64,000 bases of DNA from Polyangiaceae bacterium (GTDB lineage: Bacteria > Myxococcota_A > Polyangia > Polyangiales > Polyangiaceae), in NCBI GenBank assembly GCA_019637295.1, contig JAHBVX010000005.1:62001-126000 (forward strand), written 5' to 3'. Below are positions 17,649 to 39,199 of the stretch, piece by piece (the first letter of the stretch is position 1; every line of letters begins with the position of its first letter). Both the position numbers and the translations under genes were made by a program. The notes beneath the pieces are model-generated. The model saw only the letters and a list, made by a program, of their open reading frames with translations. It was not told where the DNA came from and did no database searches.

Positions 17649-17683
17649 CGCGACTGGCCGTCTGTACCACGAGAGAACGGAGC

Positions 17684-17712
17684 TTGCCCGAATCCCGTAA
17701 CCCGACCAGACT
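17684..17712 (+). promoter_or_regulatory. Possible promoter of the P-domain lipoprotein gene
   Basis: TTGCCC at 17684-17689 and CAGACT at 17707-17712 are 17 bases apart. Transcription would start only a few bases before the ATG at 17721, implying an almost leaderless message. Weak consensus, sequence inspection only. Confidence 0.35.
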
Positions 17713-17720
17713 GCGCCTTG

Positions 17721-18521: not shown

Positions 18522-18531
18522 GCGGGTGGGG

Positions 18532-19983
18532 TCAAGGAGCCGCGGCACCGGGCCTGTCGAGTCGCGGCAGTTCACCGAGCGCCGAGCGCCGCTCTTCGGG
18601 CAGGAAGAAGAGCAGATCCGCCAGCCGCGCCGCGCGCTCCTGCCGAGCGAACGTCACGGCGCTCGCCGTGAGACGCGCTGCGCCGAGCGCCTCGAGCTTG
18701 GCCAAGGGCCGCGCGAAGGCAGCGGCGATGTCGACCCCGAAGGTGCGCGCGAACAGCGGGCGCGACAGTTCGTCCCCGTCGCGGAACACCAGGGCGATGT
18801 AGGAGAACATCTCGTCGCGCAGCGTGGTCTCCTGACCCACGTAGCGCGCCTCCGGGATGGGCGCGCCGTGGTCGTGCTCCGCACGGTAGTGCAGCCGGCC
18901 GAAGATGCGCGAGCGCGCTGAGTCTCCGAGACCGAGCACGTTGAGGGGGCGGTGCACGCTCGACGGGACGTCGCAGTAGAACAGCCCCTCCTCGGTCCTG
19001 GCCGGACGCCGCGTACCGCCGATGCGCGAGAGCGTGATGGCGTGGCGCCCCTCGCCGCCCACGCGATAGCCCGCGCTCGCCGCCAGCTCGGCCAAGGCGG
19101 CCGGGACGACGGTCTCGAAGGGCGCCAGGAACTCTCTGAACTTGGCGTAGTCCCCCGCGAAGTGCGCGGCGACGTACTCGGCCGTGGGGTAGATGAAGTA
19201 GATGCACAGCTCGTGGGGCTGGTGAGCGCGCATCACCTCCTCGATCTCCCGGAGCATCTGCTCCGGCGTCGTGCCCGACAGACCCAGCAAGAAATCGACG
19301 TTGGCGAAGTCGGCGCCGTGCTCGCCGAGCAGTTTGAACTGCTTCTCGAGGTGCGAGCGGGTCTGTGCGCCACGCTGGTGCAAGCGGTTGATCTCGACGT
19401 CCAGACTCTGGATGCCGAAGGAGAAGCGAGTGAAGCCGAAGCGCGCGAGCACCGCGAAGCGGTCGGCGGTCATGACCATGGGGTCGAACTCGAAGTTCTT
19501 CTGCGCGCCCTCGTGGAAGGAAAACGACTCGAACAAGGCCGTCAGCAAGCGGTCGAGCTGATCGGGGCCAAGCACGCTCGGCGTGCCGCCGCCCACGTAC
19601 AGCCCGCCGAATTCGGCGCCGCGCAGCGCCGGGGCGAACAGGCGCGCCTCGCGTTCCATGAAGGCCACGTACTCGTCGAGTCCGGCGCGAGAGGAGACGT
19701 GGAGCCGCTTGTAGTTGCAGAAATCGCAGATCGACTTGCAGAACGGCACATGGACGTACAGGTTGTTCGCCGTCTCCGGCAGCGCACCCTCGAGCGCGCG
19801 TCGCCAGTGATCCAGCAGCGCCTGCGGCGTGAGGGCGGTCCGCCGCTCGCCGGACAGCTCGTGCACGAACACCGACGGTTCCGGGTAGTCCATCGCCGCG
19901 ATCACGCGGGCGTAGATCTGGCGCTCTCGGTGGAGCCGAGCGAGGCGAGCGTCATTGTGCATGGGAGCGTCCGAGACCGTCAT
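18532..19983 (-). CDS. Radical SAM enzyme A, HemN-like
   Basis: A 483-residue radical SAM protein related to the coproporphyrinogen III oxidase/HemW family. The cluster motif is CKSICDFC (Cys82, 86, 89), preceded by LYVHVPF and followed by GGLYVGGGTPS and FSFGIQSLD, all HemN-like. It lacks the extra cysteine of classical HemN (CxxxCxxCxC), so haem synthesis is not assured. The first ATG lies 14 bases from the divergent TPR gene, and a second ATG at 19962 (MHNDARL) is possible. It borders the 18.5-37.2 kb radical SAM locus and is counted as part of it by position only. Confidence 0.82.
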   Translation of the reverse strand: MTVSDAPMHNDARLARLHRERQIYARVIAAMDYPEPSVFVHELSGERRTALTPQALLDHWRRALEGALPETANNLYVHVPFCKSICDFCNYKRLHVSSRAGLDEYVAFMEREARLFAPALRGAEFGGLYVGGGTPSVLGPDQLDRLLTALFESFSFHEGAQKNFEFDPMVMTADRFAVLARFGFTRFSFGIQSLDVEINRLHQRGAQTRSHLEKQFKLLGEHGADFANVDFLLGLSGTTPEQMLREIEEVMRAHQPHELCIYFIYPTAEYVAAHFAGDYAKFREFLAPFETVVPAALAELAASAGYRVGGEGRHAITLSRIGGTRRPARTEEGLFYCDVPSSVHRPLNVLGLGDSARSRIFGRLHYRAEHDHGAPIPEARYVGQETTLRDEMFSYIALVFRDGDELSRPLFARTFGVDIAAAFARPLAKLEALGAARLTASAVTFARQERAARLADLLFFLPEERRSALGELPRLDRPGAAAP

Positions 19984-19991
19984 GGTACCAT
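19982..19991. promoter_or_regulatory. Palindromic ATGGTACCAT between divergent genes
   Basis: Only 14 bases separate the two start codons here. The ten-base palindrome reads TACCAT on both strands, so it could supply the -10 box for both directions. That would place the radical SAM start at the ATG at 19962. No clear -35 boxes were found. Confidence 0.25.
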
Positions 19992-19997
19992 CCGCTG

Positions 19998-21971
19998 GTG
20001 CCCAAGGGCGCCGCCCGATCGCCCGCGCTCGCGTCCACTGCCCGTGAGCAGCTCAAGGCCGCGCTCCGTGCCGTCCGACAGGGCGAGCTGCGCGCCGCGC
20101 TCGACCAGCTGGACGCGGTGATCGCCAGCGCGCCCGACGAGCCCGAGGTCCGGCTGCTCCGAGCTCGGCTGCGAGCGCGCGCCGGGGTGCGGGGTGCGCG
20201 CGCCGACCTGCGTCACGCGCTGGACCGTGCCGCGCCGGGTAGCGACGTGCACGCGCACGGGGCCGCGGTGCTCGAGCAGCTCGGCCTGTACGCGGACGCC
20301 GCCGACGCGCAGGCGCTCGCGCCGCGCTCCCTGGCGGGCCTGCGCAAGCAGGCCGAGCTGTGCAGCCGCGCGGGCCGCCTGCACGAGGCGATCGCGCTGC
20401 GGCGCGAGGCGGCGGCGTTGGCTCCGGGTGACCCGCGGGTCGCCATCGAGCTGAGTGAGCAGCTCGCGGCGCTCGGCGGCGTCGAGCTGGCCTTCGACGC
20501 GCTCGGCTCGCTCGGCGATGACTCGCCGGACGTGTGGCTGCGCCGCGGTCGTCTGCTGGTCGAGCTCGGGCGCCTCGCTGCCGCCGCCGACGTGGCCCGG
20601 CGCGCGGCGTCGCTGCCGACCGCCACCGCCGAGCAGCTCGTGGCGACGGCGGAGCTGCTCTTGAGCGTCGGCGAGCACGATGACGCCGTCGCGCTCGCCA
20701 CGCGTATCGCCGACGCGACGCCGCGAGCCGCGCTCTTGCAGGCGCGCGCAGCGAACTGCAGCGGGCGGTACGTCGAGGCCCGGGCCTTCGCCGAGCGCGC
20801 GCTGGTCGGGGACGACGCCGAGGCGCTGTGTCAACGCGGGATCGCCCGCTGGCTGCTGGGGGATGCCGAGGGCGCCGGCCGCGATCTGGACCAAGCGCGG
20901 GAGCGAGCGCCCGGGCTCGGCGAAGCGTGGATCTGGAGCAGTGAGGTGTCGTTGCGGCGCGGGGACGTCGAGCGAGCGGTCGAGGAGGTCACCGTTGGTA
21001 TCGAGCGGACGAAGGGCTACCCGCTCGGCGCTCACGTCGCGCAGATCGCCATCCACGCGCGCCGGCGGCGCCCAGAGCCCAGCACCTACCGGGAGCTACT
21101 GGCGCTCCTGCGGCCGGTGCTCGAGGCGCTCGGATTCTCGCCCCTGGACGCGCCTTCGGCGGAGGAACTACGGGCTCGCCTCGCGGCGGTCTTGGCTGCC
21201 CTGCGCGGCAATCGCGGGGCGACGCCGACCTTCATGCTCCCGGCCGCGGGTGGCGGCGAGCGCCTCACGGCGTTGGTGCTCCCCCGGCACGCGCGGTTCC
21301 TCGCGCGAGACGTGCAGGAGCGCATTCGGGTGACGGCGGTCGAGACGGTGCTCGCCGAGCTCGAGGCGCTGGCAGCGGAGCGTCCGCTGGAGCCCACCAT
21401 CCTCTGTCACCGCGGCGAGATCGAGCTGTGGCTTGGTCGCTACGACGCAGCGGAGCGAAGCTTCTCGCGCGCGCTGGGCGTGGCGAGCGACACGCGCTGG
21501 GCTTATGTGGGGCTGTGCGCTGCGGCCCTGCTCGGGGGACGGCTGCAAGAGGCCATCGAGTGGTGCGCGCGGGCCGAGGCGGTGGTCGTGCCGGGACGTA
21601 CCCAGTACGTCTACCGGGGCGAGGCCCATCGCCGCTTGGGTGATCTGACGCGTGCACGCGACGATCTGGCGCGGGATCGCGCGCTCACCCCGTCCCGCAT
21701 CAGCGGCTGGCTGAACGAGGCCTTGCTCGAGCCCGCGCCGCAGCGGCTGCGGGAGGTCTGGGCACGCGTCTGGCAACGAGCCCCAGGCCTGGCTACCGAC
21801 GCCTGCGTCGAACGGGGCGTCGAGCCGGAGCAAGCAGTGGACGAGCCCGAGCGACTCGTGGCGCTGTTCGAACACGTCCTCACGATGATGCGCGGCAACC
21901 GGTCGTCGAACTTCGTGACCTATTTCACCGCGGGAGGGCAGCTTCGCTTCGTCCCGCACGGCAGGGGTTGA
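19998..21971 (+). CDS. Large TPR-repeat protein associated with the radical SAM locus
   Basis: A 657-residue, almost entirely helical protein. TPR-like units run from about residue 15 to 345 (for example GELRAALDQLDAVIASAPDE and GRLHEAIALRREAAALAPGD) and again from 460 to 570 (GRYDAAERSFSRALGVAS). The region between, 350-450, is less repetitive. The last 60 residues do not look like TPRs and end in RGNRSSNFVTYFTAGGQLRF. There is no signal peptide. Its position between radical SAM A and the HExxH enzyme suggests a scaffold or substrate-presenting role in the locus, which is inference. GTG start without an obvious ribosome site. Its stop is seven bases from that of the convergent HExxH gene. 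Confidence 0.85.
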   Translation: MPKGAARSPALASTAREQLKAALRAVRQGELRAALDQLDAVIASAPDEPEVRLLRARLRARAGVRGARADLRHALDRAAPGSDVHAHGAAVLEQLGLYADAADAQALAPRSLAGLRKQAELCSRAGRLHEAIALRREAAALAPGDPRVAIELSEQLAALGGVELAFDALGSLGDDSPDVWLRRGRLLVELGRLAAAADVARRAASLPTATAEQLVATAELLLSVGEHDDAVALATRIADATPRAALLQARAANCSGRYVEARAFAERALVGDDAEALCQRGIARWLLGDAEGAGRDLDQARERAPGLGEAWIWSSEVSLRRGDVERAVEEVTVGIERTKGYPLGAHVAQIAIHARRRRPEPSTYRELLALLRPVLEALGFSPLDAPSAEELRARLAAVLAALRGNRGATPTFMLPAAGGGERLTALVLPRHARFLARDVQERIRVTAVETVLAELEALAAERPLEPTILCHRGEIELWLGRYDAAERSFSRALGVASDTRWAYVGLCAAALLGGRLQEAIEWCARAEAVVVPGRTQYVYRGEAHRRLGDLTRARDDLARDRALTPSRISGWLNEALLEPAPQRLREVWARVWQRAPGLATDACVERGVEPEQAVDEPERLVALFEHVLTMMRGNRSSNFVTYFTAGGQLRFVPHGRG

Positions 21972-21978
21972 CCTGCCC

Positions 21979-23244
21979 TCAGCCGAGGGCGGTGACGCTC
22001 GCGGCGGGATCGACAGGAGCCGACTCGGTCCGCGTCGCCGCGTGCAGCGCCTCGAGGGCCGCGAGCACGCGCCGCCCCAGCGCCGTCGGGCGACCCAGCT
22101 CGCGCAGGGTCGCCAGGCCGTGCTCGTTGGCTCCGTGCACCTCGCGCCGCCGCCGCGAGAACTCTGGTCCCGCGGCCAGCGGATGACCGAGCTCCTCCAG
22201 GCGACGGTGCAGCGCTGCCACCGGAACGAAGGCGTGAACCGCGAGCAGCACGCCGGCGAGGGGGCGCAGATCCGGACGCACGGGGGAGCGGCTCCAGGTC
22301 GAGTCGCCGTTGTCGAGCAGCGGGTCGAACCAGCGCAGCGCGTTGAGCTTGCCGTGTTGCGCCTCGTGGATCAGCGCCTCGGTCATGGTCAGCTCGGATG
22401 GATGCAGAGTGAGGTAGACCAGCCCCGGAGCCTCCCGATACGACGCGGATAGGTGGCGCTCGGGGTCGTAACCGACAGGTATCACGCGCTCGACGCCGGC
22501 CAGCAGCTCCGCGTGGAGGTCCGGCAGCGTCTGCTCGATGAGCGTGAAGGCGGCCGACAGGCGGTCGCACCACTGCTCGGGGCTGCGGCCGCCCAGGTCC
22601 ACGGCGTTGCCTTGCTTGTCCGGGTGCTCCTCGAGGTCGAACAACGGATTGCTGTCCGAGAGGGCGAGCACGGGGCCGCCGGGCGTGACGGCATGAAAAC
22701 GCTGTCGAGCGACGACGTCTTCCGGCAGCGCCGCGCTGAGCCCAAGGGCGTCGAAGCGGGCGCCTGAGGCGCTGCGGATCTCCACGCCCGAGGGATCCGC
22801 GAGCACGCCCTGGGCCGGCGGGCTGAACTCGAGGGTGCGTTCGCCCAGAGCATCGAACAGGCGAGTGAAGCGGACGTCCCAGAGCAGGGTCTCGCGCGGA
22901 CCCCGACGCCCCGAGCGGCGGCACAGCCCCACCAGCAGCGCGGGCACGGCGGTCGACAGCGCGGTCGATGCGTCGATCACGCCGCCGCGCAGCGCGAGCA
23001 CGCTCGTGAGCACGTCGACCTGGCCCAGGGCGCCGAGCAAGGCGTGGCGCTCCTCGCTCCGCGCCGTCCGTTCGAGCCAAGACTGCAGCCGACTGACCGG
23101 ACCGTGGATCGGTCGGGCGCTCGGGGCAGGAAGCGTCAGCAGCGTGTGCAGGCACAAAAGAGCGAGCTTGTCCCGCAGCTGCGCGAGGGTGCGATCCCCC
23201 GGGGGCGGCAAGGCCAAGAGGCCGCGCGGTAGCTCGGTCGACAC
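21979..23244 (-). CDS. HExxH-motif peptide-modification protein (aKG-HExxH hydroxylase-like)
   Basis: A 421-residue protein with the metal-binding motif ALIHEAQHGKLNAL (HEAQH at 293-297), followed by SPVRPDLRPLAGVLLAVHAF. That HExxH plus RPD-x-RPL-x-G layout is the signature of the family known as HEXXH motif-containing peptide-modification proteins, recently interpreted as alpha-ketoglutarate-dependent peptide beta-hydroxylases (from memory). Members usually sit in RiPP gene clusters. The N-terminal 180 residues are helical and not recognised. The GTG at 23244 is chosen because GGGG lies eight bases upstream and no ATG fits. It is divergent from radical SAM B with 33 bases between the starts. 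Confidence 0.75.
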   Translation of the reverse strand: MSTELPRGLLALPPPGDRTLAQLRDKLALLCLHTLLTLPAPSARPIHGPVSRLQSWLERTARSEERHALLGALGQVDVLTSVLALRGGVIDASTALSTAVPALLVGLCRRSGRRGPRETLLWDVRFTRLFDALGERTLEFSPPAQGVLADPSGVEIRSASGARFDALGLSAALPEDVVARQRFHAVTPGGPVLALSDSNPLFDLEEHPDKQGNAVDLGGRSPEQWCDRLSAAFTLIEQTLPDLHAELLAGVERVIPVGYDPERHLSASYREAPGLVYLTLHPSELTMTEALIHEAQHGKLNALRWFDPLLDNGDSTWSRSPVRPDLRPLAGVLLAVHAFVPVAALHRRLEELGHPLAAGPEFSRRRREVHGANEHGLATLRELGRPTALGRRVLAALEALHAATRTESAPVDPAASVTALG

Positions 23245-23267
23245 GATGCTGCCCCAGACTGTACGAT
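23238..23267 (+). promoter_or_regulatory. Probable promoter of the radical SAM B-C pair
   Basis: TCGACA (23238-23243) and TACGAT (23262-23267) are 18 bases apart, five of six and four of six matches to the vegetative consensus. Initiation would be near 23274, almost at the ATG at 23278. The -35 overlaps the start codon of the divergent HExxH gene. Confidence 0.45.
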
Positions 23268-23277
23268 CCGGTGGGCC

Positions 23278-24735
23278 ATGAGTGCAAAAGCCAGCGCGCG
23301 ACACCTGCCGCTCGTCGGCCAGGGCCCGGTGGGCGAGGCTCACCACAGGACCAAGGGGCTGCTTCGCGTGACCATGGCGTGCAACGAACGCTGCCCGTTC
23401 TGTAACGTCCCCGTCGAGGACTACCCGCGTCCCACGCCGCCCGAGTCCGAGCTCGAGGCAGAGCTCGAGCTCTTTCTGGCCTCCGGCGAGCGCACCCTCA
23501 CGCTCTCGGGGGGCGAGCCCACGCTCTACCCCAAGCGAGTGCTGATGCTCACGGCCCGGGCGCGCTCGCGCGGGGTTCCCTTCGTGGAGCTGCAGACCAA
23601 CGCCGTGCTCGTCGATCGCGAGCTCGCGGTCGCCCTCGCCGAGGCGGGGCTGACCTCCGCCTTCGTGTCGCTGCTGTCCGACGTCCCCGAGCTCCACGAC
23701 GAGCTGGCCGGACTCGAGGGCGCCTTCGCCCGCTGTTTGGCGGGCATCGACGCGCTGCTCGACGCCGGGGTCGCCGTCACCCTCAATCCCGTGATCGCCA
23801 CCCAGACTCAAGAGCGCGTCGCGGACTACGTCGAGTTCGTCGCTCGTCGCCTACCACGGGTGCGCGTGATCTCGCTGTCCGCCGTGCAGCCGCACGGACG
23901 TGCCGCCCACGGCACGAGCCTACTGCCGGACTACGCCGTGCTCGGCGAGCAGGTGAAGCTCGCTCGCGCGCGCGCTGCCGAGCACGACATCCTGCTCATC
24001 AACCCGTATTGCGGTCTGCCCTTGTGCGTCGGCTGGCACGACGACCCATCGCGCAGCGTGGAGGCCATCGAGGCGGCGAGCCGCCGTGAACTCGGCGGGC
24101 TCGCGGCGCACGGCATCGACAACCAGGGCAACAAGGCCCACGGCCCGCCCTGCGGCGGGTGCGCGCTGCGCACGCGCTGCGGGGGGGCGTGGCACGCCTA
24201 CTGGACCGTGCGCGGAGGCAGCGGCCTGGCCGCGGTGGAGCCCCGGCTCGAGCCCTGGCAGCAGGGCGCCGACCGGGCCCCGGCCCAGCGGATCGTGGGC
24301 GCCGCGGGCGGACTCGGTCCCGCCGAGCTCGCGGCGGTGCGCGGCGCCACCGAGCCGACGGTGTGGCTGGTGACCGAGCGTCTGGGCGAGGGCGACGGCA
24401 GCCGGCTGTGGTCCGCCGGCGGCACCGACCTGTTGCTGCTGGGCGAGGCGCCCGCGCTCCTGGACGACGCGGTCACGCGCGCGGAGCTTCGCTCCATCGC
24501 GCGCGACAACCACCGCCGAGAGCCCCAGTCGAAGCTTCGCGTCGTGGTCGGCCTCAGGCGCTTGGGCTCCTTTCGCCACGCCCACCAGCTGCTCACTGAG
24601 CATCGCGGCGACGTCGACGCCGTTCGTTTGCTGGTCCAAGGCGATCAGCGGCTGGAGCGCTTTGCCGCGGCGGTCCGGGCCAGCCTCGGGCTGGACGTCA
24701 CCGCGGCGACCAGGGCAGAGTCGGCGCTGGTGTGA
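23278..24735 (+). CDS. Radical SAM enzyme B with SPASM-like cysteines
   Basis: A 485-residue radical SAM protein. The cluster motif CNERCPFC is at residues 35-42, followed by LTLSGGEPTLYP and the SAM-contact strand VELQTNAVL. A second cysteine set at about 240-305 (CGLPLC, then CGGCALRTRC) follows the SPASM/twitch pattern, which holds auxiliary iron-sulfur clusters in peptide-modifying radical SAM enzymes. The last 150 residues form a separate alpha/beta region of unknown role. It has the same core architecture as enzymes C, F and G, suggesting duplication within the locus. The next radical SAM gene starts 30 bases downstream, so the two are probably cotranscribed. Confidence 0.88.
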   Translation: MSAKASARHLPLVGQGPVGEAHHRTKGLLRVTMACNERCPFCNVPVEDYPRPTPPESELEAELELFLASGERTLTLSGGEPTLYPKRVLMLTARARSRGVPFVELQTNAVLVDRELAVALAEAGLTSAFVSLLSDVPELHDELAGLEGAFARCLAGIDALLDAGVAVTLNPVIATQTQERVADYVEFVARRLPRVRVISLSAVQPHGRAAHGTSLLPDYAVLGEQVKLARARAAEHDILLINPYCGLPLCVGWHDDPSRSVEAIEAASRRELGGLAAHGIDNQGNKAHGPPCGGCALRTRCGGAWHAYWTVRGGSGLAAVEPRLEPWQQGADRAPAQRIVGAAGGLGPAELAAVRGATEPTVWLVTERLGEGDGSRLWSAGGTDLLLLGEAPALLDDAVTRAELRSIARDNHRREPQSKLRVVVGLRRLGSFRHAHQLLTEHRGDVDAVRLLVQGDQRLERFAAAVRASLGLDVTAATRAESALV

Positions 24736-24765
24736 TACCGTTCGCTGGATGCTCCGAAGGACGCG

Positions 24766-26592
24766 ATGAGCCAGCTGCCGGACACCGAGAACATGCTCTG
24801 GAAGGAGCGCGTCGCGAACACGCCCAAGCACTGGGTTCGCGCGGTGACCGCCTGCAACAGCCGCTGTCTGTTCTGCCTGGACTCGGACACTCCGCGCAAC
24901 GTGTACCTGCCCGTGGACGAGATCCGGCGCGAGCTCGACCGCGGGCGGGAGCAGCTCGGCGCGGTGAAGGTGATCATCTCCGGAGGCGAAGCGACGTTGC
25001 ACCCTGCCTTCCCCGAGCTGGTTCGCTATGCGCTCGCGTCCGGCTACGAGCGGGTGCAGACCGTCACCAACGGGTACCGGCTCGCGGATCCGGAGTTCTT
25101 CGACGCCTGCTTGGACGCGGGCCTGGGCGAGATCACCTTCAGCCTGCATGGTCATGACGCCGCGCTGCACGATCGGCTGACGCAGACGCCGGGCGCGTTC
25201 AAGCGCCTCATCAAGGGCATGGTGCGCGCGCTGCGCGACGGCAGGCCGATCGTGAACGTGGACGTCGTCATCAACAAGCAGAACGTCGCCGTGCTCGACA
25301 AGATCGTGGAGCTGTGCATTTCGCTGGGCGTCACCGAGTTCGACCTGCTGCACGTCATCCCGCAGGCCGCGGCCTTCGAGCACCGGGACGAGCTGTTCTA
25401 CGACGTGCGGGAGCACTTGCCGGTGCTGCACAAGGTCTTCCGCCTCAATCGACACCCGCGCTTCGTGGTCTGGACGAACCGCTTCCCGGTGTCCTACCTG
25501 GAGGGGCTCGAGGATCTGATCCAAGACCCCCACAAGATGCTGGACGAGGTGAACGGGCGTCGCTTCCAGGTGCGCCGCTACCTGGACGAAGGCCTGCCCC
25601 TCGACTGCCGCCATCCGGAGCGCTGCCCCCACTGCTTCATCGAGCCGTTCTGCACCAGCATGGATCGCGTGATCGAGGCGCAGCACGCCGAGCGCTTCGA
25701 GGTGTACCTCGTCTCGGAGGTCCCGGCCGAGGTCCCCGCCCTGCCCTACGGCTGCACGAAGCTGGGGCTGTCCGCGGGGACCTTCGCGCAGTTGCCCCCG
25801 GGGGTCGGCTGCTATGCGCTGCTAGAGAGCGCCGAGCCGATCCCGAGAGAGCTCGGCGTCGGTCGTGAGGTGACGCTGGTCGCGGGCAGGCCTGAGCAGC
25901 TCGACGCCTGGCTCGGCGCGCCGCTGCCGGCGGGGGTCGAGCTGGAGATACGGCTGAACCACCGAACCGCGGACTGGTTGCTCGAGCACCGCGGGCTGCT
26001 GGAGGCCCAGCTCGATCGGGTCCTCATCCATCAGCCGAGCCATGAGCACCTGCAGCAGGCGATCGCCGAGGACGTGCGGCAGCCGCGGGCGTTCTTCGCG
26101 GCGCTGGAGCTGCCGGTGAGGGTCAGCGGGCTGCCGCCATGCCAGGTGCCCGGCGCTGCCTGGGTGCCCGAGCGGCTGATCCTGGACGCAGCCCTGTTCG
26201 AGCCCGAGACCGGCCGCTTGGCGATCCGCGAGCTGGCTCGGCACCACGTGCAGAGCCGCTACCGCGCCAAGAGCGTGCGCTGCTCGGAGTGTCGTGTGAC
26301 GGATCGCTGCGACGGCGCCGCCATCAACATGGTGCGGGATCAGGGGCTCGCCATCCTCACGCCCGTCACTGGCGGGGACGCAGCGGACGCCATCGTGCGG
26401 CGCCTGACCGAGCTCTTGCCGGAACCCCCGCGGCGGGTCGAGCTGGGCGCGCCGCCGCTACCTCCGAGCGTGAGCCTGCCGGGCTACGCAGCCCCGGGCC
26501 CGGCACCGCCGGATCCCCTCGCGGTCATCGAGCAGCAGCGACAGGCCAAGGCTCGGCTCCGCCGGCGAGCGCTGCCGCTAGTGTCCGGCTGA
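24766..26592 (+). CDS. Radical SAM enzyme C with two C-terminal cysteine knots
   Basis: A 608-residue radical SAM protein with CNSRCLFC at residues 30-37, VIISGGEATLHP and ITFSLHGHDAALHDRL, the latter shared in form with enzymes F and G. It has two C-terminal SPASM-like cysteine groups: CRHPERCPHCFIEPFC near residue 285-300 and CSECRVTDRC near 505-515, separated by about 200 residues of alpha/beta sequence. This suggests either two auxiliary-cluster domains or a fusion. A GAAGGA ribosome site precedes the ATG. The gene ends 15 bases inside the convergent radical SAM D gene, so the two 3' ends overlap. Confidence 0.88.
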   Translation: MSQLPDTENMLWKERVANTPKHWVRAVTACNSRCLFCLDSDTPRNVYLPVDEIRRELDRGREQLGAVKVIISGGEATLHPAFPELVRYALASGYERVQTVTNGYRLADPEFFDACLDAGLGEITFSLHGHDAALHDRLTQTPGAFKRLIKGMVRALRDGRPIVNVDVVINKQNVAVLDKIVELCISLGVTEFDLLHVIPQAAAFEHRDELFYDVREHLPVLHKVFRLNRHPRFVVWTNRFPVSYLEGLEDLIQDPHKMLDEVNGRRFQVRRYLDEGLPLDCRHPERCPHCFIEPFCTSMDRVIEAQHAERFEVYLVSEVPAEVPALPYGCTKLGLSAGTFAQLPPGVGCYALLESAEPIPRELGVGREVTLVAGRPEQLDAWLGAPLPAGVELEIRLNHRTADWLLEHRGLLEAQLDRVLIHQPSHEHLQQAIAEDVRQPRAFFAALELPVRVSGLPPCQVPGAAWVPERLILDAALFEPETGRLAIRELARHHVQSRYRAKSVRCSECRVTDRCDGAAINMVRDQGLAILTPVTGGDAADAIVRRLTELLPEPPRRVELGAPPLPPSVSLPGYAAPGPAPPDPLAVIEQQRQAKARLRRRALPLVSG

Positions 26593-29793: not shown

Positions 29794-29825
29794 GGGCGCT
29801 TACTCTACCATCGAACGGCCGGCGG

Positions 29826-30926: not shown

Positions 30927-31094
30927 CGGCGCGATTGTTACCCGCTTCGGCCCGCGCGCGGCCGGGTTTCGTAACCGCGCACACCCTATCCCACAATGTG
31001 TGCGGCGAGCGGCGAGGACTCTCGGCTTTGCGCGCCTGTCAGGCTGAGATACTCTTGTTTCGCAGCGCTCGGCTGCGCGCTTGGAGGCTCGGCA
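30927..31094. other. Divergent regulatory region of the hxs operon
   Basis: 168 bases separate the lipoprotein and the first gene of the eight-gene operon. It is the largest non-coding gap in the locus. A GATACT hexamer at 31048-31053 resembles a -10 box for the plus strand, but the best upstream partner (TTGCGC, 31028-31033) is only 14 bases away. A GGAGG ribosome site lies at 31083-31087, seven bases before the ATG at 31095. Confidence 0.4.
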
Positions 31095-31607
31095 ATGCGG
31101 CGACGAGAATTCTTCGGTGGAGTGCTTTCGGCCACGGCGGCGCTGGGTGTGACCGCGCCGAGCGACGGCGCCGAGGCTGCTCTCGCGACGGACCCGGCCC
31201 TCGAGCCCGACGAGACGTTGGGCAACGAGCAGCTGCTGGCGCTGCTCGCGCCGCTCGAGCTCGGGCAGGTCGTGGGCCTCGGCTGGCGGCTGGCCGAGTT
31301 GACCGATGTCGTGAAAGGCGGCGCCGTGCTGACGCTGTACCACGACGAGTCCGCCCGAGAAGCTCGCGTGCACGTCTGCCGCAAGGGCGAGGTGGCTCGC
31401 GGCGCGGCGCAGAGTGAGACCCTCGACTTCCTGCTCATGAACGATGGCGACGGCTCGCGCCCGACGGACGAGAGCCTGGGGCGAGTGCTGCGGGTGATCG
31501 CGCTGGTCGCACGCGGCAACGAAGGCTCGGGCCTGAGCGCGCCGCGCGGGCTCTTGTCCCACGACGCCCGAGTCTCCGCGTTTCGCCGCTCGCGCGCGCT
31601 CGTCTAG
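31095..31607 (+). CDS. Small exported protein with Tat-like leader, first gene of hxs operon
   Basis: A 170-residue protein beginning MRRREFFGGVLSATAALGVT, which resembles a twin-arginine leader (RRxFF followed by a moderately hydrophobic stretch) with a likely cut near AEA. The mature part of about 140 residues is not recognised; it contains LLALLAPLELGQVVGLGW and a strand-rich central region (VLTLYHDESAREARVHVCR). An excellent GGAGG site supports the ATG at 31095. It is the first gene of a run of eight tightly packed genes, with 15 bases to hxsD, so it should be expressed with the maturation enzymes. A role as an exported partner or alternative substrate is speculation. Confidence 0.75.
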   Translation: MRRREFFGGVLSATAALGVTAPSDGAEAALATDPALEPDETLGNEQLLALLAPLELGQVVGLGWRLAELTDVVKGGAVLTLYHDESAREARVHVCRKGEVARGAAQSETLDFLLMNDGDGSRPTDESLGRVLRVIALVARGNEGSGLSAPRGLLSHDARVSAFRRSRALV

Positions 31608-31622
31608 TATCCTGAGCCCATC

Positions 31623-32069
31623 ATGAGCGAAGAGACCGCAGACTTCACCTTCGAGCTATCCGAGCGCGAGCTCAGCTTCGATGTCGACGAGGAACTGTAC
31701 GCGCTCGATGCCATCTACGGCGCCGCCTACCTGTTCGTCGATCGGGCGTACGTCTTTCTGGCGCGGCCAGCCGAGCGGAAGGTCCGAGTCCGCCTGCGGA
31801 GCAAGGAGGCGACCACGCCAGAGGCGCTCGAGGCCTTGGCTGGAGAGTTCGCCAACGAGCTGTTGAACAGCCAACTCCGCGTGCGCATCGGACGTTCCAC
31901 CGCTGCGCTGCGAGAGCAGTACATGAGTCGCGCGTTCTTCGGCCAGCAGCAGAGCTCCACCATCGCCGAGCTGCTCGCTGAGCTCGACGCCGAAGAGATG
32001 GCGGAGGAGCCCCTGGAGGTGCCCGTACCCTGGGCCAAGGGCTCGGGCGCGGAGGCCAGCGATGGCTGA
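31623..32069 (+). CDS. hxsD: His-Xaa-Ser system protein HxsD
   Basis: A 148-residue soluble protein. It matches the HxsD family by its SFDVDEELYALDAIYGAAY start, an alternating central strand region, and the segment ANELLNSQLRVRIGRSTAALRE, cut here to ELLNSQLRVRIGRSTAALRE. The family model was originally named for a LLNDYxLRE motif, to which LLNSQLRVRI corresponds. HxsD accompanies the radical SAM pair HxsB/HxsC and the repeat protein HxsA; its biochemical role is unknown, possibly peptide recognition. The acidic C-terminal 35 residues exceed the usual length. The next gene's ATG overlaps its stop by eight bases. Confidence 0.75.
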   Translation: MSEETADFTFELSERELSFDVDEELYALDAIYGAAYLFVDRAYVFLARPAERKVRVRLRSKEATTPEALEALAGEFANELLNSQLRVRIGRSTAALREQYMSRAFFGQQQSSTIAELLAELDAEEMAEEPLEVPVPWAKGSGAEASDG

Positions 32070-32277
32070 GACGCTCCACTTCACTCGCTCGCTGTACGCG
32101 CCCGAGGCGGTGCAAGAGGCAGCGCGGGCGTTCGGGCACCTGGCGACGATCGACGTCTCGCAGGGCGAGGACGACATCGCCCTGGTGGCGACGGACATCG
32201 ATCCGGAGGTCGCGCACGTCCTGTTGGACGAGCTCGCCAACCATGCCTTGGTGCTCACGGTTCAGGCCCGCGGATGA
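32062..32277 (+). CDS. Small HxsD-like partner protein
   Basis: A 71-residue protein that looks like a second, shortened HxsD. Both share LYAxxAxxxAAxxF near the N-terminus (SLYAPEAVQEAARAF here, ELYALDAIYGAAYLF in HxsD), a run of short strands, and a C-terminal LLDELANHAL that parallels the FANELLNSQL of HxsD. No signal peptide. Its ATG lies within the end of hxsD, and its stop is overlapped by the hxsB ATG (ATGA), so all three are translationally coupled. The homology to HxsD is my reading of the two sequences. A role as the second half of a peptide-binding heterodimer is possible but untested. Confidence 0.7.
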   Translation: MAETLHFTRSLYAPEAVQEAARAFGHLATIDVSQGEDDIALVATDIDPEVAHVLLDELANHALVLTVQARG

Positions 32278-33788
32278 GCACCACACAGACTCGCACCCTG
32301 AGCGTCGTTCGCCTGCCCCTGGTGGAGGACAAGCTCAACTTCTTCCGCTACGGCGACGTCGCGGGCAAGAAGCTGGTGACCAACGACACCGGCGCGTGGC
32401 ACTTCCTGGACGAGGCCTCGTTCCGGGACTTGCTCGCGGGTCGGGTCGAGCCGGGACACGCCCACTACGAGGCGCTCGCGGAGAAGGGCTTCCTGCGTAG
32501 CGGCTTGGACCTCGGGCGCTTCGCCGAGAAGATGGCTCGGAAGAAGCGGTTCGTCGGACAGGGTCCGCACCTGCACATCGTGATCACCACCCTGCGCTGC
32601 AACCAGTCGTGCAAGTACTGCCACGCCTCGCGCACCAACATGGACCGCGTGGACACCGACATGTCGCTGGAAACCGCCAAGAAGGTGGTCGATCACGCGA
32701 TGCAGAGCCCGTCGCCCTACATCAACTTCGAGTTTCAGGGCGGAGAGCCCACCGTCAACATGCCGGTGCTGAAGTTCATCGTCGAATACAGCCGCGAGAA
32801 GAACCGATACGAGAACAAGCAGCTCGAGCACTCCCTCGTCACCAACATGACGTACATGACCGAGGAGAACGCCGAGTGGCTCATCGACAACGAGGTGCTG
32901 GTGTGCACCAGCCTCGACGGCCCGGAGGAGCTGCACAACTACAACCGCACCTGGAGCAAGGAGAAGAACGCCTACGCCGACGTGCGCCGCTGGATCGACT
33001 ACTTCAATCGCCGCTACGTCGAGAAAGGTCGCGACCCGCAGCTCTGGCACGTAGACGCCCTGATGACCACCTCCCGCAAGACCTTCGACCACTGGAAGCA
33101 GGTCGTGGATCTGTATGTCGAGCTCGGGATGCACACCATCTTCCTGCGGCCCCTCAACCCCTACGGCTTCGCGCTCGATACCTGGAAGCGCATCGGGTAC
33201 ACCACCGACGAGTACTTGGGGTTCTACCGGCAGGCGCTGGACTACATCTTGGAACTGAACCGCGCGGGCACGGAGATCGTGGAGGGCACCGCGGCGGTGT
33301 TTCTGATGAAGATGCTCACCGGTGACGACCCGAACTTCGTCGACATCCGCTCGCCCTGCGGCGCCGGGACGGGCCAGGTCGCCTACAACTACGACGGCAA
33401 GATCTTTACCTGCGACGAGGCCCGCATGACCGCCGCGATGGGCAACGACATGTTCGAGATCGGGGAGGCTGGCGTCACGAGCTACGAAGCGGCCTATGGC
33501 CACCCCACGGTCAAGGCCATGGCCGTGGCTAGCCTGCAGGACTCCCTGCCCCACTGCGAGACCTGCTGGAACAAGCCTTTTTGCGGGGTTTGTCCGATGC
33601 ACAACTACATGACCAGCGGGGATCTGTTCGGTCAACGTCCGAACTCGCCCAAGTGCAAAGAACATTATACAATTGCCTCGTTGCTGTTCGAGCGTCTGGC
33701 CGACGACCCGGACGGCAAGCTCGAGCAGATTTTCCGTCGCTGGACGCTGACCCGCCCTCGGGAACAGGGTTCTAGCTGCGCAGTGTGA
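32274..33788 (+). CDS. hxsB: His-Xaa-Ser system radical SAM maturase HxsB
   Basis: A 504-residue radical SAM/SPASM enzyme. The first 90 residues carry the HxsB-type leader region (NFFRYGD, LVTNDTGAWHFLDE, YEALAEKGFL). The catalytic motif CNQSCKYC is at 109-116, followed by FEFQGGEPTVN. The C-terminal SPASM region contains SPCGAG, FTCDEARM, CETCWNKPFCGVCPMHNY and a last Cys in SPKCKEH, enough for two auxiliary clusters. Family knowledge: HxsB is paired with HxsC and thought to modify HxsA-type repeat peptides. Here the putative substrate gene follows directly, starting within or 11 bases after the stop. It is AT-richer than its neighbours at places (for example AAAGAACATTATACAATTG near 33658). 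Confidence 0.82.
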   Translation: MSTTQTRTLSVVRLPLVEDKLNFFRYGDVAGKKLVTNDTGAWHFLDEASFRDLLAGRVEPGHAHYEALAEKGFLRSGLDLGRFAEKMARKKRFVGQGPHLHIVITTLRCNQSCKYCHASRTNMDRVDTDMSLETAKKVVDHAMQSPSPYINFEFQGGEPTVNMPVLKFIVEYSREKNRYENKQLEHSLVTNMTYMTEENAEWLIDNEVLVCTSLDGPEELHNYNRTWSKEKNAYADVRRWIDYFNRRYVEKGRDPQLWHVDALMTTSRKTFDHWKQVVDLYVELGMHTIFLRPLNPYGFALDTWKRIGYTTDEYLGFYRQALDYILELNRAGTEIVEGTAAVFLMKMLTGDDPNFVDIRSPCGAGTGQVAYNYDGKIFTCDEARMTAAMGNDMFEIGEAGVTSYEAAYGHPTVKAMAVASLQDSLPHCETCWNKPFCGVCPMHNYMTSGDLFGQRPNSPKCKEHYTIASLLFERLADDPDGKLEQIFRRWTLTRPREQGSSCAV

Positions 33789-33799
33789 GGGACACCGCC

Positions 33800-34087
33800 A
33801 TGGATAAGAAGGACCCCAAGAGCAAGCTGCCCCGCCTCCAGAAACGACCCGCGGATTTCCTGCAGTCCGAGGAGCAGCGTCAAGCCACCAAGCCCGCGAC
33901 TACTGGCGATCTGCTCAGCCGCGCGGACGTCCGCCTCGACGGGCTCGAGGGCGGCTTCAACGCCCACGCCTCGCACGCCTCCCACGGCTCCCACGGCTCC
34001 CACGGCTCCCACGGCTCCCACGGCTCCCACGGCTCCCACGGCTCCCACGGCTCCCACGGGTCGCATGGCTCGCACGGTCAGTGGTGA
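33800..34087 (+). CDS. hxsA: HxsA-type precursor peptide with Ser-His-Gly repeats
   Basis: A 95-residue peptide, the best candidate substrate of the locus. Residues 1-53 form a charged leader (MDKKDPKSKLPRLQKRPADF at the start, then a mixed helical part ending LDGLEGGFN). From residue 55 it is AHASHA followed by eleven Ser-His-Gly units (61-93) and a final Gln-Trp, giving twelve overlapping His-Xaa-Ser triplets and 13 histidines. There is no signal peptide and no cysteine. The ATG at 33800 has a GAGGGA site; a GTG at 33785 overlapping the hxsB stop is also possible. The next radical SAM gene starts inside its stop codon, so peptide and enzymes are translationally coupled. Confidence 0.85.
   Translation: MDKKDPKSKLPRLQKRPADFLQSEEQRQATKPATTGDLLSRADVRLDGLEGGFNAHASHASHGSHGSHGSHGSHGSHGSHGSHGSHGSHGSHGQW
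33980..34078 (+). repeat. Eleven 9-bp tandem repeats in the precursor gene
   Basis: Eleven consecutive nine-base units encode Ser-His-Gly. The first eight, 33980-34051, are identical at every base (TCCCACGGC); the last three differ only at synonymous positions. Identical codon use over eight units suggests recent expansion by slippage, so copy number probably varies between strains. Confidence 0.95.
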
Positions 34088-35055
34088 GCCAGCTCATCCT
34101 GACCGTAACGCGACGCTGCAACCTTCGATGCAACTACTGTCCCACGGCGAAGGATGGCTTCCCCTCGCTGACCCCGCGCGACGCGCTGCGGGCGCTCGCC
34201 GTATTTCGTGATCGCTTCGGGGGCGGCGACGTGAAGCTGTTCGGCGGCGAGCCGCTGCTCGAGCCCGAGGTCGTTCGAGCGGTGTTCGAGGCGGCGCGGC
34301 GCGAGCCGCGGATCGGCCGGGTGTACCTGTCCACCAACGGTCTGGGGCTGGACTCCGAGTGGTTGGCGTACCTGGCCGGTCACGACAAGGCCGTGCTCAC
34401 CCTCTCTCTCGACGGCCGTCCGGGCGATCACCGCCGGCTCCGACGCGCCTTGCCGAACGTGGGGGACGCGTACGAGCACGTCCTCGGGCTGCTCCCCGAG
34501 TTGCTCGCCATGCCCCGGCTGGTCGTCACCCAGACCATCGCACCGTCGACGGCAGCGTCGGCGGATCAGAACTTCGCGCACCTGCTCGGCCTGGGGTTTC
34601 GCCGCTTCAACTTCCTGCCGGGCTATTACCTCCCCTGGCGTGACGAGCAACTCCGCGCCCTGCGCCAAGGTTTCGAGGCGATCGCCTCACGCATCGCGGA
34701 ACGCTGGCAACAGGGTCGGTTCACCTACGTTCGAAACCTGTTCACCTGGGCGCCCACGCCATTCTTCAACACGGGAGTAGTGGTCGACTCGGATGGCAGC
34801 ATCCACCCGAACAACCTGGGGCTGGCCTCAGCCCTCGACGAGCTGTTGCCCCGTAGCCGCAGCGGCAGCCTGGACGACCCACCCACCCTCGACGAGCTGG
34901 AGCGCAAGGCCCGCGACGTCGACGCCTGGCTGCAGGAGAAGCTGCCTGCCGACGTGATGCGCTCCACGGTCGCGGTCGACGCCGAGCTGAGCCGGTTCTG
35001 CCGTGGTTTGTACCCCGAGTTCGCGGCCTACCGCCGGCGCAGGAGCGCCGCGTGA
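34084..35055 (+). CDS. Radical SAM enzyme E, directly downstream of the precursor
   Basis: A 323-residue radical SAM protein starting with a GTG that overlaps the precursor stop (GTGA). The cluster motif CNLRCNYC occupies residues 12-19, followed by VKLFGGEPLLEPEV and LSLDGRPGDHRR. It is compact and has only one or two C-terminal cysteines, so it lacks a SPASM domain. Its position corresponds to that of HxsC in other His-Xaa-Ser systems, but it does not show features that I can firmly tie to HxsC, so no symbol is assigned. The stop is overlapped by the next radical SAM gene. Confidence 0.87.
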   Translation: MSQLILTVTRRCNLRCNYCPTAKDGFPSLTPRDALRALAVFRDRFGGGDVKLFGGEPLLEPEVVRAVFEAARREPRIGRVYLSTNGLGLDSEWLAYLAGHDKAVLTLSLDGRPGDHRRLRRALPNVGDAYEHVLGLLPELLAMPRLVVTQTIAPSTAASADQNFAHLLGLGFRRFNFLPGYYLPWRDEQLRALRQGFEAIASRIAERWQQGRFTYVRNLFTWAPTPFFNTGVVVDSDGSIHPNNLGLASALDELLPRSRSGSLDDPPTLDELERKARDVDAWLQEKLPADVMRSTVAVDAELSRFCRGLYPEFAAYRRRRSAA

Positions 35056-36065
35056 TGCACCTGCCGGTTCTCCCGAGCGCCGCCCCGAAGCCGGCGGCGG
35101 ACACGCCCTGGATCGGTCCGAACGGGCGGGCGATGGAGCGACTCGAGCTGCACCTGACCTACACGTGCCCCGAGCGCTGCAGCTTCTGTTCGGAGGAGCA
35201 CCGCATGAAGGCCTATCGCGGCTACCCCGTGACCTGGGGGCGGGTCGCCACCGTGCTGCGTCTGCACGCGAGTCGAGGGGTTCGCGGCGTGCACTTGACG
35301 GGTGGCGAGCCGACCATCCATCCGCAGTTCATCGAGACCCTGGTCCTGGCCAAGAAGCTGGGTATGCGGACGAGCGTCGGGACCATCGGCACCCGCCTCG
35401 CCGACGAGGCGTTTGCCCGTCAGGCGCTGCCGCACCTGGACGAGGCGCTCTTCTCGCTGCACGGTCCGAGCGCCGCAGTGCACGATCGCATGGCTGGTCG
35501 TGACGGGAGCTTCGCGCGCGTAGTGCTCGCGCTCGAGAACTCCCTGCGCCTGAAGCCGGGCTTCGGCGCCTACGTGAACACGGTGGTCACCCGTCACAAC
35601 GTGGACGCGCTCGCCGACACCGTGGCGCTCGCGGACCAACTGGGCGCCAAGTTGATCGTGATCTCCAACACCACCCCGGAGGGCGCAGGGCTCGACCGCT
35701 ACGACGAACTGGCAGTTCCGCTCGACGAGCTCGCGCGGGTACTGCCGCTGGCGGCGGAGCGCGCAGCGGCCGCCATCGTCCGCTTCTTTGGCGTGCCCAT
35801 GTGTCTGCTCGGCGCGCACTCGATGCTCTCCAACGATCTGCACTGGGACCCGCGGGTCACGGTGGAGTGGCAGAGCGCACCCGGCAAGGTGGTGTTCGAC
35901 GGGATCTACTCGTGGGCGCCGGACCGCAAGCGTGTGCACACCCTGGCCTGCGAGCGCTGCACCCGCAAGGGCGTGTGCATGGGGGTCTTCGATCGGTACG
36001 CCGAGCTGTATCCGACCGAGGCGCTCGTCCCCTTCACCGAGTCGGGCGCGGGGGACGACGCGTGA
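35055..36065 (+). CDS. Radical SAM enzyme F
   Basis: A 336-residue radical SAM protein with CPERCSFC at 38-45, GVHLTGGEPTIHP, and ALFSLHGPSAAVHDRM, the same SxHG motif seen in enzymes C and G. One short C-terminal cysteine group, CERCTRKGVC near residue 298-307, could hold part of an auxiliary cluster. The ATG at 35055 overlaps the preceding TGA by one base; a GTG at 35052 is the alternative. The next gene begins with a GTG overlapping its stop. The substrate is unknown; the operon position points to the adjacent repeat peptide. Confidence 0.86.
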   Translation: MHLPVLPSAAPKPAADTPWIGPNGRAMERLELHLTYTCPERCSFCSEEHRMKAYRGYPVTWGRVATVLRLHASRGVRGVHLTGGEPTIHPQFIETLVLAKKLGMRTSVGTIGTRLADEAFARQALPHLDEALFSLHGPSAAVHDRMAGRDGSFARVVLALENSLRLKPGFGAYVNTVVTRHNVDALADTVALADQLGAKLIVISNTTPEGAGLDRYDELAVPLDELARVLPLAAERAAAAIVRFFGVPMCLLGAHSMLSNDLHWDPRVTVEWQSAPGKVVFDGIYSWAPDRKRVHTLACERCTRKGVCMGVFDRYAELYPTEALVPFTESGAGDDA

Positions 36066-37192
36066 GCAACCAAGTCCAGAGCCCGCTACGCGACCGGCGC
36101 CGCAACGTCGAGATCAACGTCGGCAAGAGCTGCAACAACAAGTGCGTCTTCTGCCTCGATGGGATGCCGAGCAAGGAGGACAAGCGCTTCATCGACTTCG
36201 AGGTCATGAAGGCGGAGCTCGATCGCTGGCGCAGTGAGGGTCACGAGTCGGTCGGCTTCCTGGGCGGCGAGCCCACGACCTACTCGCGCATCACCGAGTC
36301 CATCGCCTACGCGAAGCAGATCGGGTTCACGCGGATCGCGGTGGCTACCAACGCCATGATGTTTCGCCGCGAGGCCTTCGTCGACGAGCTCGTGGACGCT
36401 GGGCTCACCCGGGTCACCATCTCCATGCACGGCCACACCGCCGCTCTCGAGGACCGGCTCACGGCGGTGCCCGGTGGCTTCGAGAAGAAGTGCGCGGCGA
36501 TTCGCAACCTCCAGAAGCGCCAGGCGCGCGGGGATCTCGCCGACGGACTGAGCGTGAACCTGGTCCTCAACGGCTGGAACTACCGCCACCTGCCCAAGAT
36601 GATGCGCTTCTTCTTCGAGCAGATGGGCCTCGAGGACCTGCGAGTGAACTTCATCCGCCCGGAGGGCTACGCCGAGGGCAGCGCGGATCTGACCCCCACG
36701 CTGACGGACGTGGTGCCGCTCTTGATGAAGGCGGTGCTGCTCAACGAGTACCACTTCCGCAAGATCTTCACCTTCGCCGCCGTTCCGTTCTGCGTCCTGC
36801 CGCCGGAGCTCTTGAACAGCAAGAACCTCTTGGCCAAGTACGTCGGGGACGTATACCGAGACCTGTCCACGGATTGCTCCATCCGTAACGAGGGTTTCGA
36901 CATCGGCGTGGCCCGAGTGGAAAATGGCCGCTCGCGCTTCAACTGGCAAGATCGCAAGCGCTTCGACCTGAAGGACCAGCCGGACGGCTGTCGCACCTGC
37001 GTGATGGCCGAGATGTGCGAGGGGGTGTGGCGGGGTTACCTCGACATCTACGGTGACGGCGAGCTCGCGCCGCTCGCTGCCGAGGGAGGGCGCCTCGGCC
37101 GTCGCGCGCCCTTGCCCGCTCGGGCCCCCCAGCCCCGGCCCGTCACGCCGAAGCCCGCGTTCCCCGTGCGCCTCACGGTCTTGTCTCGCTGA
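36062..37192 (+). CDS. Radical SAM enzyme G, last gene of the hxs operon
   Basis: A 376-residue radical SAM protein. The cluster motif CNNKCVFC is at 24-31, with FLGGEPTTYS and VTISMHGHTAALEDRL resembling enzyme C closely. A C-terminal group CRTCVMAEMC near residue 308-317 is SPASM-like. It starts with GTG overlapping the stop of enzyme F (GTGA). The last 35 residues are Pro/Arg-rich. It ends the plus-strand run and is followed by a hairpin and a convergent lipoprotein gene. Confidence 0.86.
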   Translation: MSNQVQSPLRDRRRNVEINVGKSCNNKCVFCLDGMPSKEDKRFIDFEVMKAELDRWRSEGHESVGFLGGEPTTYSRITESIAYAKQIGFTRIAVATNAMMFRREAFVDELVDAGLTRVTISMHGHTAALEDRLTAVPGGFEKKCAAIRNLQKRQARGDLADGLSVNLVLNGWNYRHLPKMMRFFFEQMGLEDLRVNFIRPEGYAEGSADLTPTLTDVVPLLMKAVLLNEYHFRKIFTFAAVPFCVLPPELLNSKNLLAKYVGDVYRDLSTDCSIRNEGFDIGVARVENGRSRFNWQDRKRFDLKDQPDGCRTCVMAEMCEGVWRGYLDIYGDGELAPLAAEGGRLGRRAPLPARAPQPRPVTPKPAFPVRLTVLSR

Positions 37193-39034: not shown

Positions 39035-39199
39035 GATTCACCTCCGAACCACGACACAGCCACTCTATCACCAGAACGAGCGGAACACGACCGATCGCAA
39101 GCGGAACACCTCTGCGCACCAGGTGGGCGCATGTGTGCCGGCGGCGGTCGCCGAGTTGTGGTTCGTCGCCAGGGGTCGCGCTATGCTCTGCCGCAGCAA
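39035..39199. other. Divergent promoter region of two surface-protein genes
   Basis: 165 bases between divergent lipoprotein genes. A TATGCT hexamer at 39182-39187 (in CGCGCTATGCT) lies 12 bases before the ATG at 39200, and the same CGCGCTATGCT occurs before the CAP-domain gene at 45298-45308. A ribosome site GGAGGTG precedes the minus-strand GTG at 39034. Confidence 0.45.

Follow-up and report, generated by a model that had tools for sequence, protein, structure and literature searches.

Gene content of the locus

Within the window, the 64,000-nucleotide stretch of Polyangiaceae bacterium DNA analysed here, positions 18532-37192 hold a dense group of radical S-adenosylmethionine (rSAM) genes around a peptide-modification operon of the His-Xaa-Ser kind, with a precursor of type HxsA4. 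Reading of open reading frames and motifs gives eight rSAM frames carrying nine CxxxCxxC motifs, and Pfam Radical_SAM is over its cut-off in all eight proteins, in agreement with a preliminary description that had counted eight rSAM proteins and nine such clusters in 18.7 kb. The same description had named an HExxH enzyme, HxsD, HxsB and a Ser-His-Gly repeat peptide, and each of these families is over its NCBIfam cut-off. Of the 64 Radical_SAM places in the genome's 7.65 Mb, 8 fall inside these 18.7 kb, where an even spread would put about 0.16; chance clustering of the rSAM genes is thereby ruled out. The locus is likely to encode a ribosomally synthesized and post-translationally modified peptide (RiPP) pathway that belongs to the His-Xaa-Ser kind (type HxsA4) and, in this expanded form, is conserved across Myxococcota.

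The core operon lies entirely on the plus strand. Its first gene codes for a protein with a twin-arginine translocation (Tat) signal (31095-31607, the start corrected by alignment to about 31095), followed by HxsD (31623-32069; TIGR03976, 55.1 bits, cut-off 50), a small HxsD-like protein, HxsDr (32062-32277; NF038315, 59.4 bits, cut-off 41), which is an addition to the preliminary list, and the rSAM/SPASM maturase HxsB (32274-33788; TIGR03978, 503.3 bits, cut-off 370). The HxsA4 precursor comes directly after HxsB and consists of a leader and a (Ser-His-Gly)n-Gln-Trp core (33785-34087; NF038313, 94.9 bits, cut-off 55); an ATG start at 33800 is more likely than the GTG at 33785. We number the rSAM genes rSAM1-3 in the left flank and rSAM6-8 after HxsA4, the fusion (26578-29793) and HxsB keeping their names. 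By family scan, rSAM6 (34081-35055) is PapB-like and has its CxxxCxxC motif, and rSAM7 (35052-36065) resembles mycofactocin maturases, HxsC4 and PqqE. The last gene, rSAM8 (36062-37192, start corrected; the query ran from 36059), is closest to HxsC4, whose model it covers almost completely at 136.1 bits (cut-off 500). From Tat to rSAM8 there are seven junctions between neighbouring genes, and each is either a 15-bp gap or an overlap of 4-8 bp, a spacing as in one transcript, to judge from the gene coordinates (31095 to 37192).

The left flank begins with rSAM1 (18532-19983, minus strand), an accessory HemW/HemN-like protein with the motif CKSICDFC that reaches 49.2 bits in Pfam and has no NCBIfam family over cut-off. 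It is followed by a tetratricopeptide repeat (TPR) protein from the family scan, also accessory (19998-21971, plus strand), and a homologue of the alpha-ketoglutarate HExxH-type peptide beta-hydroxylases (21979-23250, minus strand, start approximate; TIGR04267, 97.9 bits, cut-off 40). Then come rSAM2 (23278-24735, plus strand), HxsC-like with auxiliary-cluster cysteines (HxsC its best family, 86.2 bits, cut-off 267.9), and rSAM3 (24766-26592, plus strand), HxsC4-like with two C-terminal cysteine clusters (94.7 bits, cut-off 500). The fusion (minus strand) has two CxxxCxxC motifs and joins a B12-binding rSAM domain to a second, PapB-like rSAM domain. Pfam calls only the second of these; the assignment of the first is based on its motif, a B12-binding domain (35.5 bits, cut-off 32.1) and sub-cut-off B12/rSAM matches.

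Conservation of the core operon

We drew on two samples of genomes, 144 relatives and 377 genomes taken from the phylum (234 genera). Genome searches scored only the best first-look candidates per genome (the best five in the fusion search, for example), and related genomes are non-independent data points. Orthologues of rSAM7 (E at most 1e-80) occur in 43 of the 377 phylum genomes and in 23 of the 234 genera. Leaving out the window's own, this gives 42 rSAM7 loci, all of which were fetched, and by bit thresholds that we set, rSAM6 is present in 37 of them, HxsA4 in 36, HxsB in 30, the Tat protein in 30, HxsD in 29, rSAM8 in 29, HxsDr in 23, rSAM3 (within 25 kb of rSAM7) in 22 and the HExxH protein in 20. 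With a laxer HxsD threshold, the series Tat-HxsD-HxsB-HxsA4-rSAM6-rSAM7 is found on the same strand and in the same order in 30 of the 42. Eleven of the 12 loci without HxsB have less than 2 kb of contig upstream, and the twelfth, in G399, is a real exception. HxsB of 61-84% identity occurs in 12 loci from uncultured genomes, of which 10 are labelled Myxococcota, Myxococcales, Sandaracinaceae or Deltaproteobacteria and the remaining two bear the deposited labels Oligoflexia (L097) and Rhodobacterales (L099).

Among the 17 loci with the window's type of HxsB and at least 10 kb on each side, the number of rSAM motif domains within 15 kb is 4-8 with a median of 7, and 14 of the 17 have the HExxH gene within 20 kb. 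These counts, and those for the other type, run low because the home-made profile behind them overlooked rSAM1 and the window's B12 domain. Loci of the other type hold 2-10 rSAM domains within 15 kb (median 3.5, n=6), with HExxH in three. The preliminary description had judged the system far larger than known ones; the many rSAM genes are there, but sets of this size are usual around this HxsB, so the locus is typical of a conserved type and no single oddity.

HxsA4, the HExxH protein and two precursor classes

HxsA4 matches at E 1e-3 were found in 98 of the 144 relatives and are over the cut-off in 55, the sub-cut-off matches being discarded; one of 14 control genomes matches, below the cut-off. 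The HExxH protein is present in 56 of the 144: in 48 of the 55 HxsA4 genomes, versus 8 of the 89 without HxsA4, and 81 genomes have neither (p 3.5e-22). This co-occurrence holds also across different contigs, and the protein is found in seven of the nine named carrier genomes. Because it follows HxsA4 genome-wide, the hydroxylase is a part of HxsA4 systems in general.

The HxsA4 loci that we examined, a part of the 55 HxsA4 genomes, show two classes: arrays with a Gln-Trp end go with HxsB of at least 54% identity, and arrays with a Ser-Trp end go with HxsB of 31-49% identity or lie apart from HxsB. Beside HxsB of more than 500 tblastn bits, all 34 full arrays end in Gln-Trp, and beside HxsB of 150-500 bits all 18 end in Ser-Trp; among full arrays without a local HxsB match, 1 ends in Gln-Trp and 16 in Ser-Trp. 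Across the fetched loci, His-Cys stands at the array start in 33 of 35 Gln-Trp and in 34 of 34 Ser-Trp full arrays.

Some loci are larger still. The highest number for any fetched region counted in full is that of a locus of the other type (G139:C13:13598-61642), where a Ser-Trp HxsA4 of 52 units lies among 16 rSAM motif domains spread over 48 kb (the count is also 16 over 60 kb), and one window-type operon (G389:C119) has two HxsA4 genes, of 20 and 43 units, and two copies of the Tat protein. The window's own genome (G000) contains an orphan HxsA4 of the Ser-Trp class together with an adjoining 122-amino-acid protein that ends in MCCW (G000:C20:394795-395163 and 395298-395567, both on the minus strand), with no rSAM motif domain within 15 kb. 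This neighbour resembles a Nif11-type precursor (GG motif); as a shared partner of orphan HxsA4 it was rejected, occurring among the fetched loci only in this genome. A second HxsB over the cut-off (550 bits; G000:C8:35554-36957) lies where no HxsA was seen close by, and it could act in trans on the orphan HxsA4.

Flanking genes and the extent of the system

Six of the 144 relatives carry the window's type of HxsB, at 68-100% identity (G000 itself, G001, G082, G089, G122 and G133), and the next best match is at 50% or less. rSAM7 is present in five of these carriers, the exception being G122, where the hxs contig is cut. rSAM2 occurs in 5 of the 144 relatives, rSAM1 in 4 and the fusion in 4, in every case among the six carriers and in none of the 138 others (Fisher p 1.2e-8, 8.7e-7 and 8.7e-7, respectively). 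The corresponding values are 6.3e-7, 4.9e-5 and 4.9e-5 by genus, and 3e-7, 2.1e-5 and 2.1e-5 when the window's own genome is removed. In G089, of the same order as the window genome, a single contig holds the fusion, TPR, rSAM1, HExxH, rSAM3, Tat, HxsD, HxsDr, HxsB, HxsA4, rSAM6, rSAM7, rSAM8 and rSAM2 genes, reordered; G133 has this set minus the fusion. In G001 and G082, rSAM2 sits on other contigs. TPR homologues (30-33%) adjoin rSAM1 in G089, G122 and G133.

The preliminary description had treated the flank (18532-29793) and the hxs operon as a single system, and this view survives, since the flanking rSAM genes are conserved beside the operon or with its carriers. Its list of members held for the rSAM and Hxs genes and has to be shortened by the lipoprotein at 29826-30926, which is not conserved; rSAM1, the fusion and TPR are accessory. 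Two lipoproteins, that one and another at about 17500-18521, were rejected as members, since neither has a match over 60 bits across the 37 loci that carry HxsB of this type, and a MiaB rSAM gene in 16185-18575 was excluded as a tRNA enzyme over its cut-off. Sequence comparison thus indicates a locus that is real, conserved and, in the main, one system, with the lipoprotein left out and TPR and rSAM1 as accessory parts.

Alternatively, two systems could lie side by side, an hxs operon (31095-37192) that modifies HxsA4 and an unrelated set of rSAM genes (18532-29793). Such a division would fit the placement of the left genes on both strands and their rarity in the 42 rSAM7 loci, where the N-terminal part of the fusion is found in 5, rSAM2 in 4, rSAM1 in 3 and TPR in 2, partly because of contig ends (the C-terminal part of the fusion is found in 2). 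We consider it unlikely, given that rSAM2, rSAM1 and the fusion are confined to operon carriers, that rSAM3 and HExxH lie at most 25 kb away in 22 and 20 of the 42 loci, and that HExxH tracks HxsA4 genome-wide.

Besides this scarcity of the accessory genes, several observations weigh against the reading of the locus as one conserved HxsA4 pathway. G399 has rSAM7 and rSAM8 with no HxsB within 20 kb, and rSAM8 is missing from nine loci despite more than 2.5 kb of contig downstream. No rSAM protein except HxsB passes any NCBIfam cut-off among the matches listed (at most 25 each), the others resembling the HxsC, HxsC4, PapB, mycofactocin or HemW families below the listed cut-offs; canonical HxsC itself is below its cut-off, with a best score, that of rSAM2, of 86.2 against 267.9, as is HxsC4 (136.1 against 500). 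The HExxH protein is lacking in 7 of the 55 HxsA4 genomes, and 8 genomes in which HxsA4 does not reach the cut-off have it. HxsA4 exists without any rSAM gene within 15 kb in 7 of 13 loci lacking a local HxsB, one of them in this genome, and the window, G001 and G082 lack the Cys found ahead of the array in 67 of 69 full arrays of relatives.

Selection on the repeat

Between adjacent repeat units of 74 arrays from relatives' loci (5-52 units, median 14, the window's array excluded), 1623 codon differences are synonymous and 38 change the amino acid, in a test limited to arrays in which 60% or more of the units are SHG and to units that retain two or more of the Ser-His-Gly residues, a filter that favours few changes; the synonymous share expected without selection is about 19-26%. 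Because synonymous differences dominate between neighbouring units, selection acts on Ser, His and Gly alike, and the codon comparison is strong evidence that all three matter in the repeat. The units can equally be read as His-Gly-Ser triplets that follow one another without overlapping, His being at position i and Ser at i+2. Read in this way, the precursor has the aromatic-X-acceptor i/i+2 motif, with few changes at all three positions.

Features of individual proteins

Catalytic motifs are intact and conserved. The rSAM2 cysteines are conserved across 5 sequences and rSAM3 has 11 conserved cysteines (27 sequences); rSAM7 has four conserved cysteines beyond CxxxCxxC, and in rSAM6 the CxxxCxxC cysteines are the only conserved ones (37 sequences). 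In the HExxH protein, H295, E296, H299, D309, R325, D327, R329 and P330 are kept in 95% or more of 41 sequences, the window's among them. Its alignment with ChlH (8s5f) has an E of 2.5e-5, and that with 22nu, a deposit described as a radical SAM core domain-containing protein, an E of 3.2e-12; the HExxH and R-x-D-L-R-P residues are kept in both.

The model of HxsD is ferredoxin-like, beta-beta-alpha-beta-beta-alpha with a long helix (predicted local distance difference test score, pLDDT, 80.6). Its closest folds are RPB11-type subunits, a weak match (E 2.3e-3, Z below 8), and a PqqD-like winged-helix RiPP recognition element fold is not among the matches listed, whose best scores are weak. RPB11-type subunits pair with a partner, and the modelled fold makes it possible that HxsD and the adjacent HxsDr form a pair. 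Neither Pfam nor NCBIfam offers a family for the Tat protein, and an assignment of its function from the fold was abandoned, the best scores (Z 5.8, Foldseek E 0.63) amounting to no fold match.

The same genome has other groups of rSAM genes. One array (G000:C20:95970-105434) has six Radical_SAM places (C20:96027-104429), of which one is 44% like the rSAM domain at the C-terminus of the fusion. A further group at G000:C1:286493-305105 has five Radical_SAM places, and at G000:C1:285890-293940 three rSAM genes (554-605 amino acids) lie close together with two proteins of about 250 amino acids.

A proposed pathway

Gene content and conservation suggest that a single short protein of Ser-His-Gly repeats is the target of up to eight rSAM enzymes and an oxygen-using hydroxylase. 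In the pathway that we propose, the HxsA4 leader would be presented to the rSAM set, probably aided by HxsD and the HxsD-like protein, and HxsB, rSAM6, rSAM7, rSAM8 and rSAM3 would act on the repeated core of consecutive His-Gly-Ser triplets. The likeliest reaction, by analogy with the literature, would be an i/i+2 bond from the His imidazole to the Ser beta-carbon, and the HExxH enzyme, going by its family, would put beta-hydroxyls on core residues. rSAM2, the B12-rSAM/rSAM fusion and rSAM1 would contribute extra tailoring in some lineages. The Tat protein would be exported and might handle or receive the finished peptide outside the cytoplasm.

We propose a ring across His-Gly-Ser together with beta-hydroxylation because cyclophane rSAM enzymes and HExxH enzymes carry out comparable reactions elsewhere. 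According to the portion of PMC11002830 available to us, rSAM enzymes that form three-residue cyclophanes work in i/i+2 fashion on the motifs His-X-Ala, His-X-Arg and Phe-X-Ser, bonding His C2 to the Ala or Arg C-beta and Phe to the Ser C-beta. Similarly, the excerpt of PMC12636437 at hand reports that the HExxH enzyme ChlH hydroxylates His and Asp on a preformed cyclophane and that PosC and PflC hydroxylate strings of Gln. By this analogy, each His-Gly-Ser unit of the 5-52-unit repeat is probably processed by i/i+2 cross-linking and beta-hydroxylation; the type of cross-link is a guess, because HxsB is far below the cut-offs of three cyclophane maturases. More tentatively, HxsA4 could give rise in many Myxococcota to a gene-templated polymer, in which several radical enzymes and an oxygen-dependent hydroxylase turn each of the 5-52 His-Gly-Ser units into the same cross-linked and hydroxylated ring, with the conserved C-terminal Trp as a cap, as a periodic chain of His rings that possibly carries metals or electrons; we regard this as a speculative possibility.

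A different view takes the repeat as a plain His-rich metal-binding peptide, with the rSAM enzymes building a separate small molecule or cofactor and HxsA4 acting as its carrier or as a metal sink. The His-rich repeat is in keeping with it, as is the MopE-type gene with metal-binding repeats (PF11617) that follows at 37217-39034, which has a 58% homologue near rSAM8 in G001, of the same genus, and weaker matches over 60 bits in 12 of the 37 loci of this type. In Ser-Trp loci, moreover, MopE genes stand at 12 per 325 kb within 5 kb of HxsA4, a higher density than the 5 per 479 kb at a distance of 5-20 kb. Window-type loci, however, are without clear enrichment by motif count (4 per 281 kb versus 5 per 539 kb), HxsB and HxsD are peptide-system families, and Ser and Gly are kept like His although simple metal binding has no need of them. 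We therefore think this view improbable. The region after the operon (37217-41020) encodes the MopE-type protein, with seven metal-binding-repeat matches, and a protein with an IgGFc-binding domain (PF17517), and homologues of the two (58% and 64%) lie near rSAM8 in G001. As a member of the system the MopE-type protein is at most a candidate, given the missing enrichment by motif count and the many PF11617 places of this genome (61 repeat matches). Least probable is a role of the modified peptide as a cofactor, covalent or bound, or as a scaffold of the exported Tat protein, comparable to redox cofactors that derive from peptides: the Tat gene lies upstream of HxsD in 30 of the 42 loci and its signal keeps R3 in at least 95% of 37 sequences, but the protein has neither a known family nor a fold match.

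Comparison with known systems

In the literature searched, we found no description of the product of any His-Xaa-Ser system and no publication naming HxsA4 or HxsC4. HxsB and HxsC were named putative His-Xaa-Ser peptide maturases by Haft and Basu, as cited in the accessible part of PMC9062424, and the part of PMC8446631 at hand only lists hxsABCD among the genes of a genomic region. Like the classical systems (HxsA-D), the locus has HxsB and HxsD over the cut-off and a repeat precursor directly after HxsB. Unlike them, it has eight rSAM domains besides HxsB where the classical systems have one (HxsC), as well as a second HxsD-like protein, a Tat protein and an HExxH hydroxylase. Because HxsC is below its cut-off, we file it as an HxsA4-type variant, outside classical HxsABCD. 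Parts of the system are already recognised, since NCBI models exist for HxsA4, HxsC4 and the HxsD-like protein: the precursor is HxsA4 (NF038313) and rSAM8 spans nearly the whole HxsC4 model (NF038332), but its score there is only 136.1 bits against a cut-off of 500.

The HExxH enzyme belongs to the same family of alpha-ketoglutarate hydroxylases as ChlH, PflC and PosC and shares their HExxH and RxDLRP residues; it differs in its putative substrate, a Ser-His-Gly repeat, in being unfused to an rSAM domain and in its weak match to ChlH. With TvgA/TvgB the locus shares an rSAM enzyme acting on a tandem-repeat precursor and an iron/alpha-ketoglutarate enzyme in the cluster, whereas TvgA/TvgB has one rSAM enzyme, Val cyclopropane chemistry and an unrelated TVGG motif, according to the sections of PMC9062424 and PMC11002830 at hand. 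The triceptide or cyclophane rSAM enzymes (HaaB, YhhB, MscB) share the i/i+2 motif logic, with His donors and Ser acceptors known separately in the excerpt of PMC11002830. In contrast to these maturases, HxsB scores only 48.1 against 310 for GrrM/OscB, 53.1 against 445 for YhhB and 46.1 against 425 for AmcB, which counts against a cyclophane assignment. To our knowledge, no triceptide or cyclophane member tiles one motif 5-52 times with many rSAM enzymes. If the proposal is right, many radical enzymes would work on one repeated tripeptide, and oxygen-sensitive and oxygen-dependent enzymes would be combined in one peptide pathway. Set beside the known systems, the locus appears as a version of His-Xaa-Ser in which the core set is defined, further enzymes form a second conserved tier, and selection acts on every residue of the repeat.

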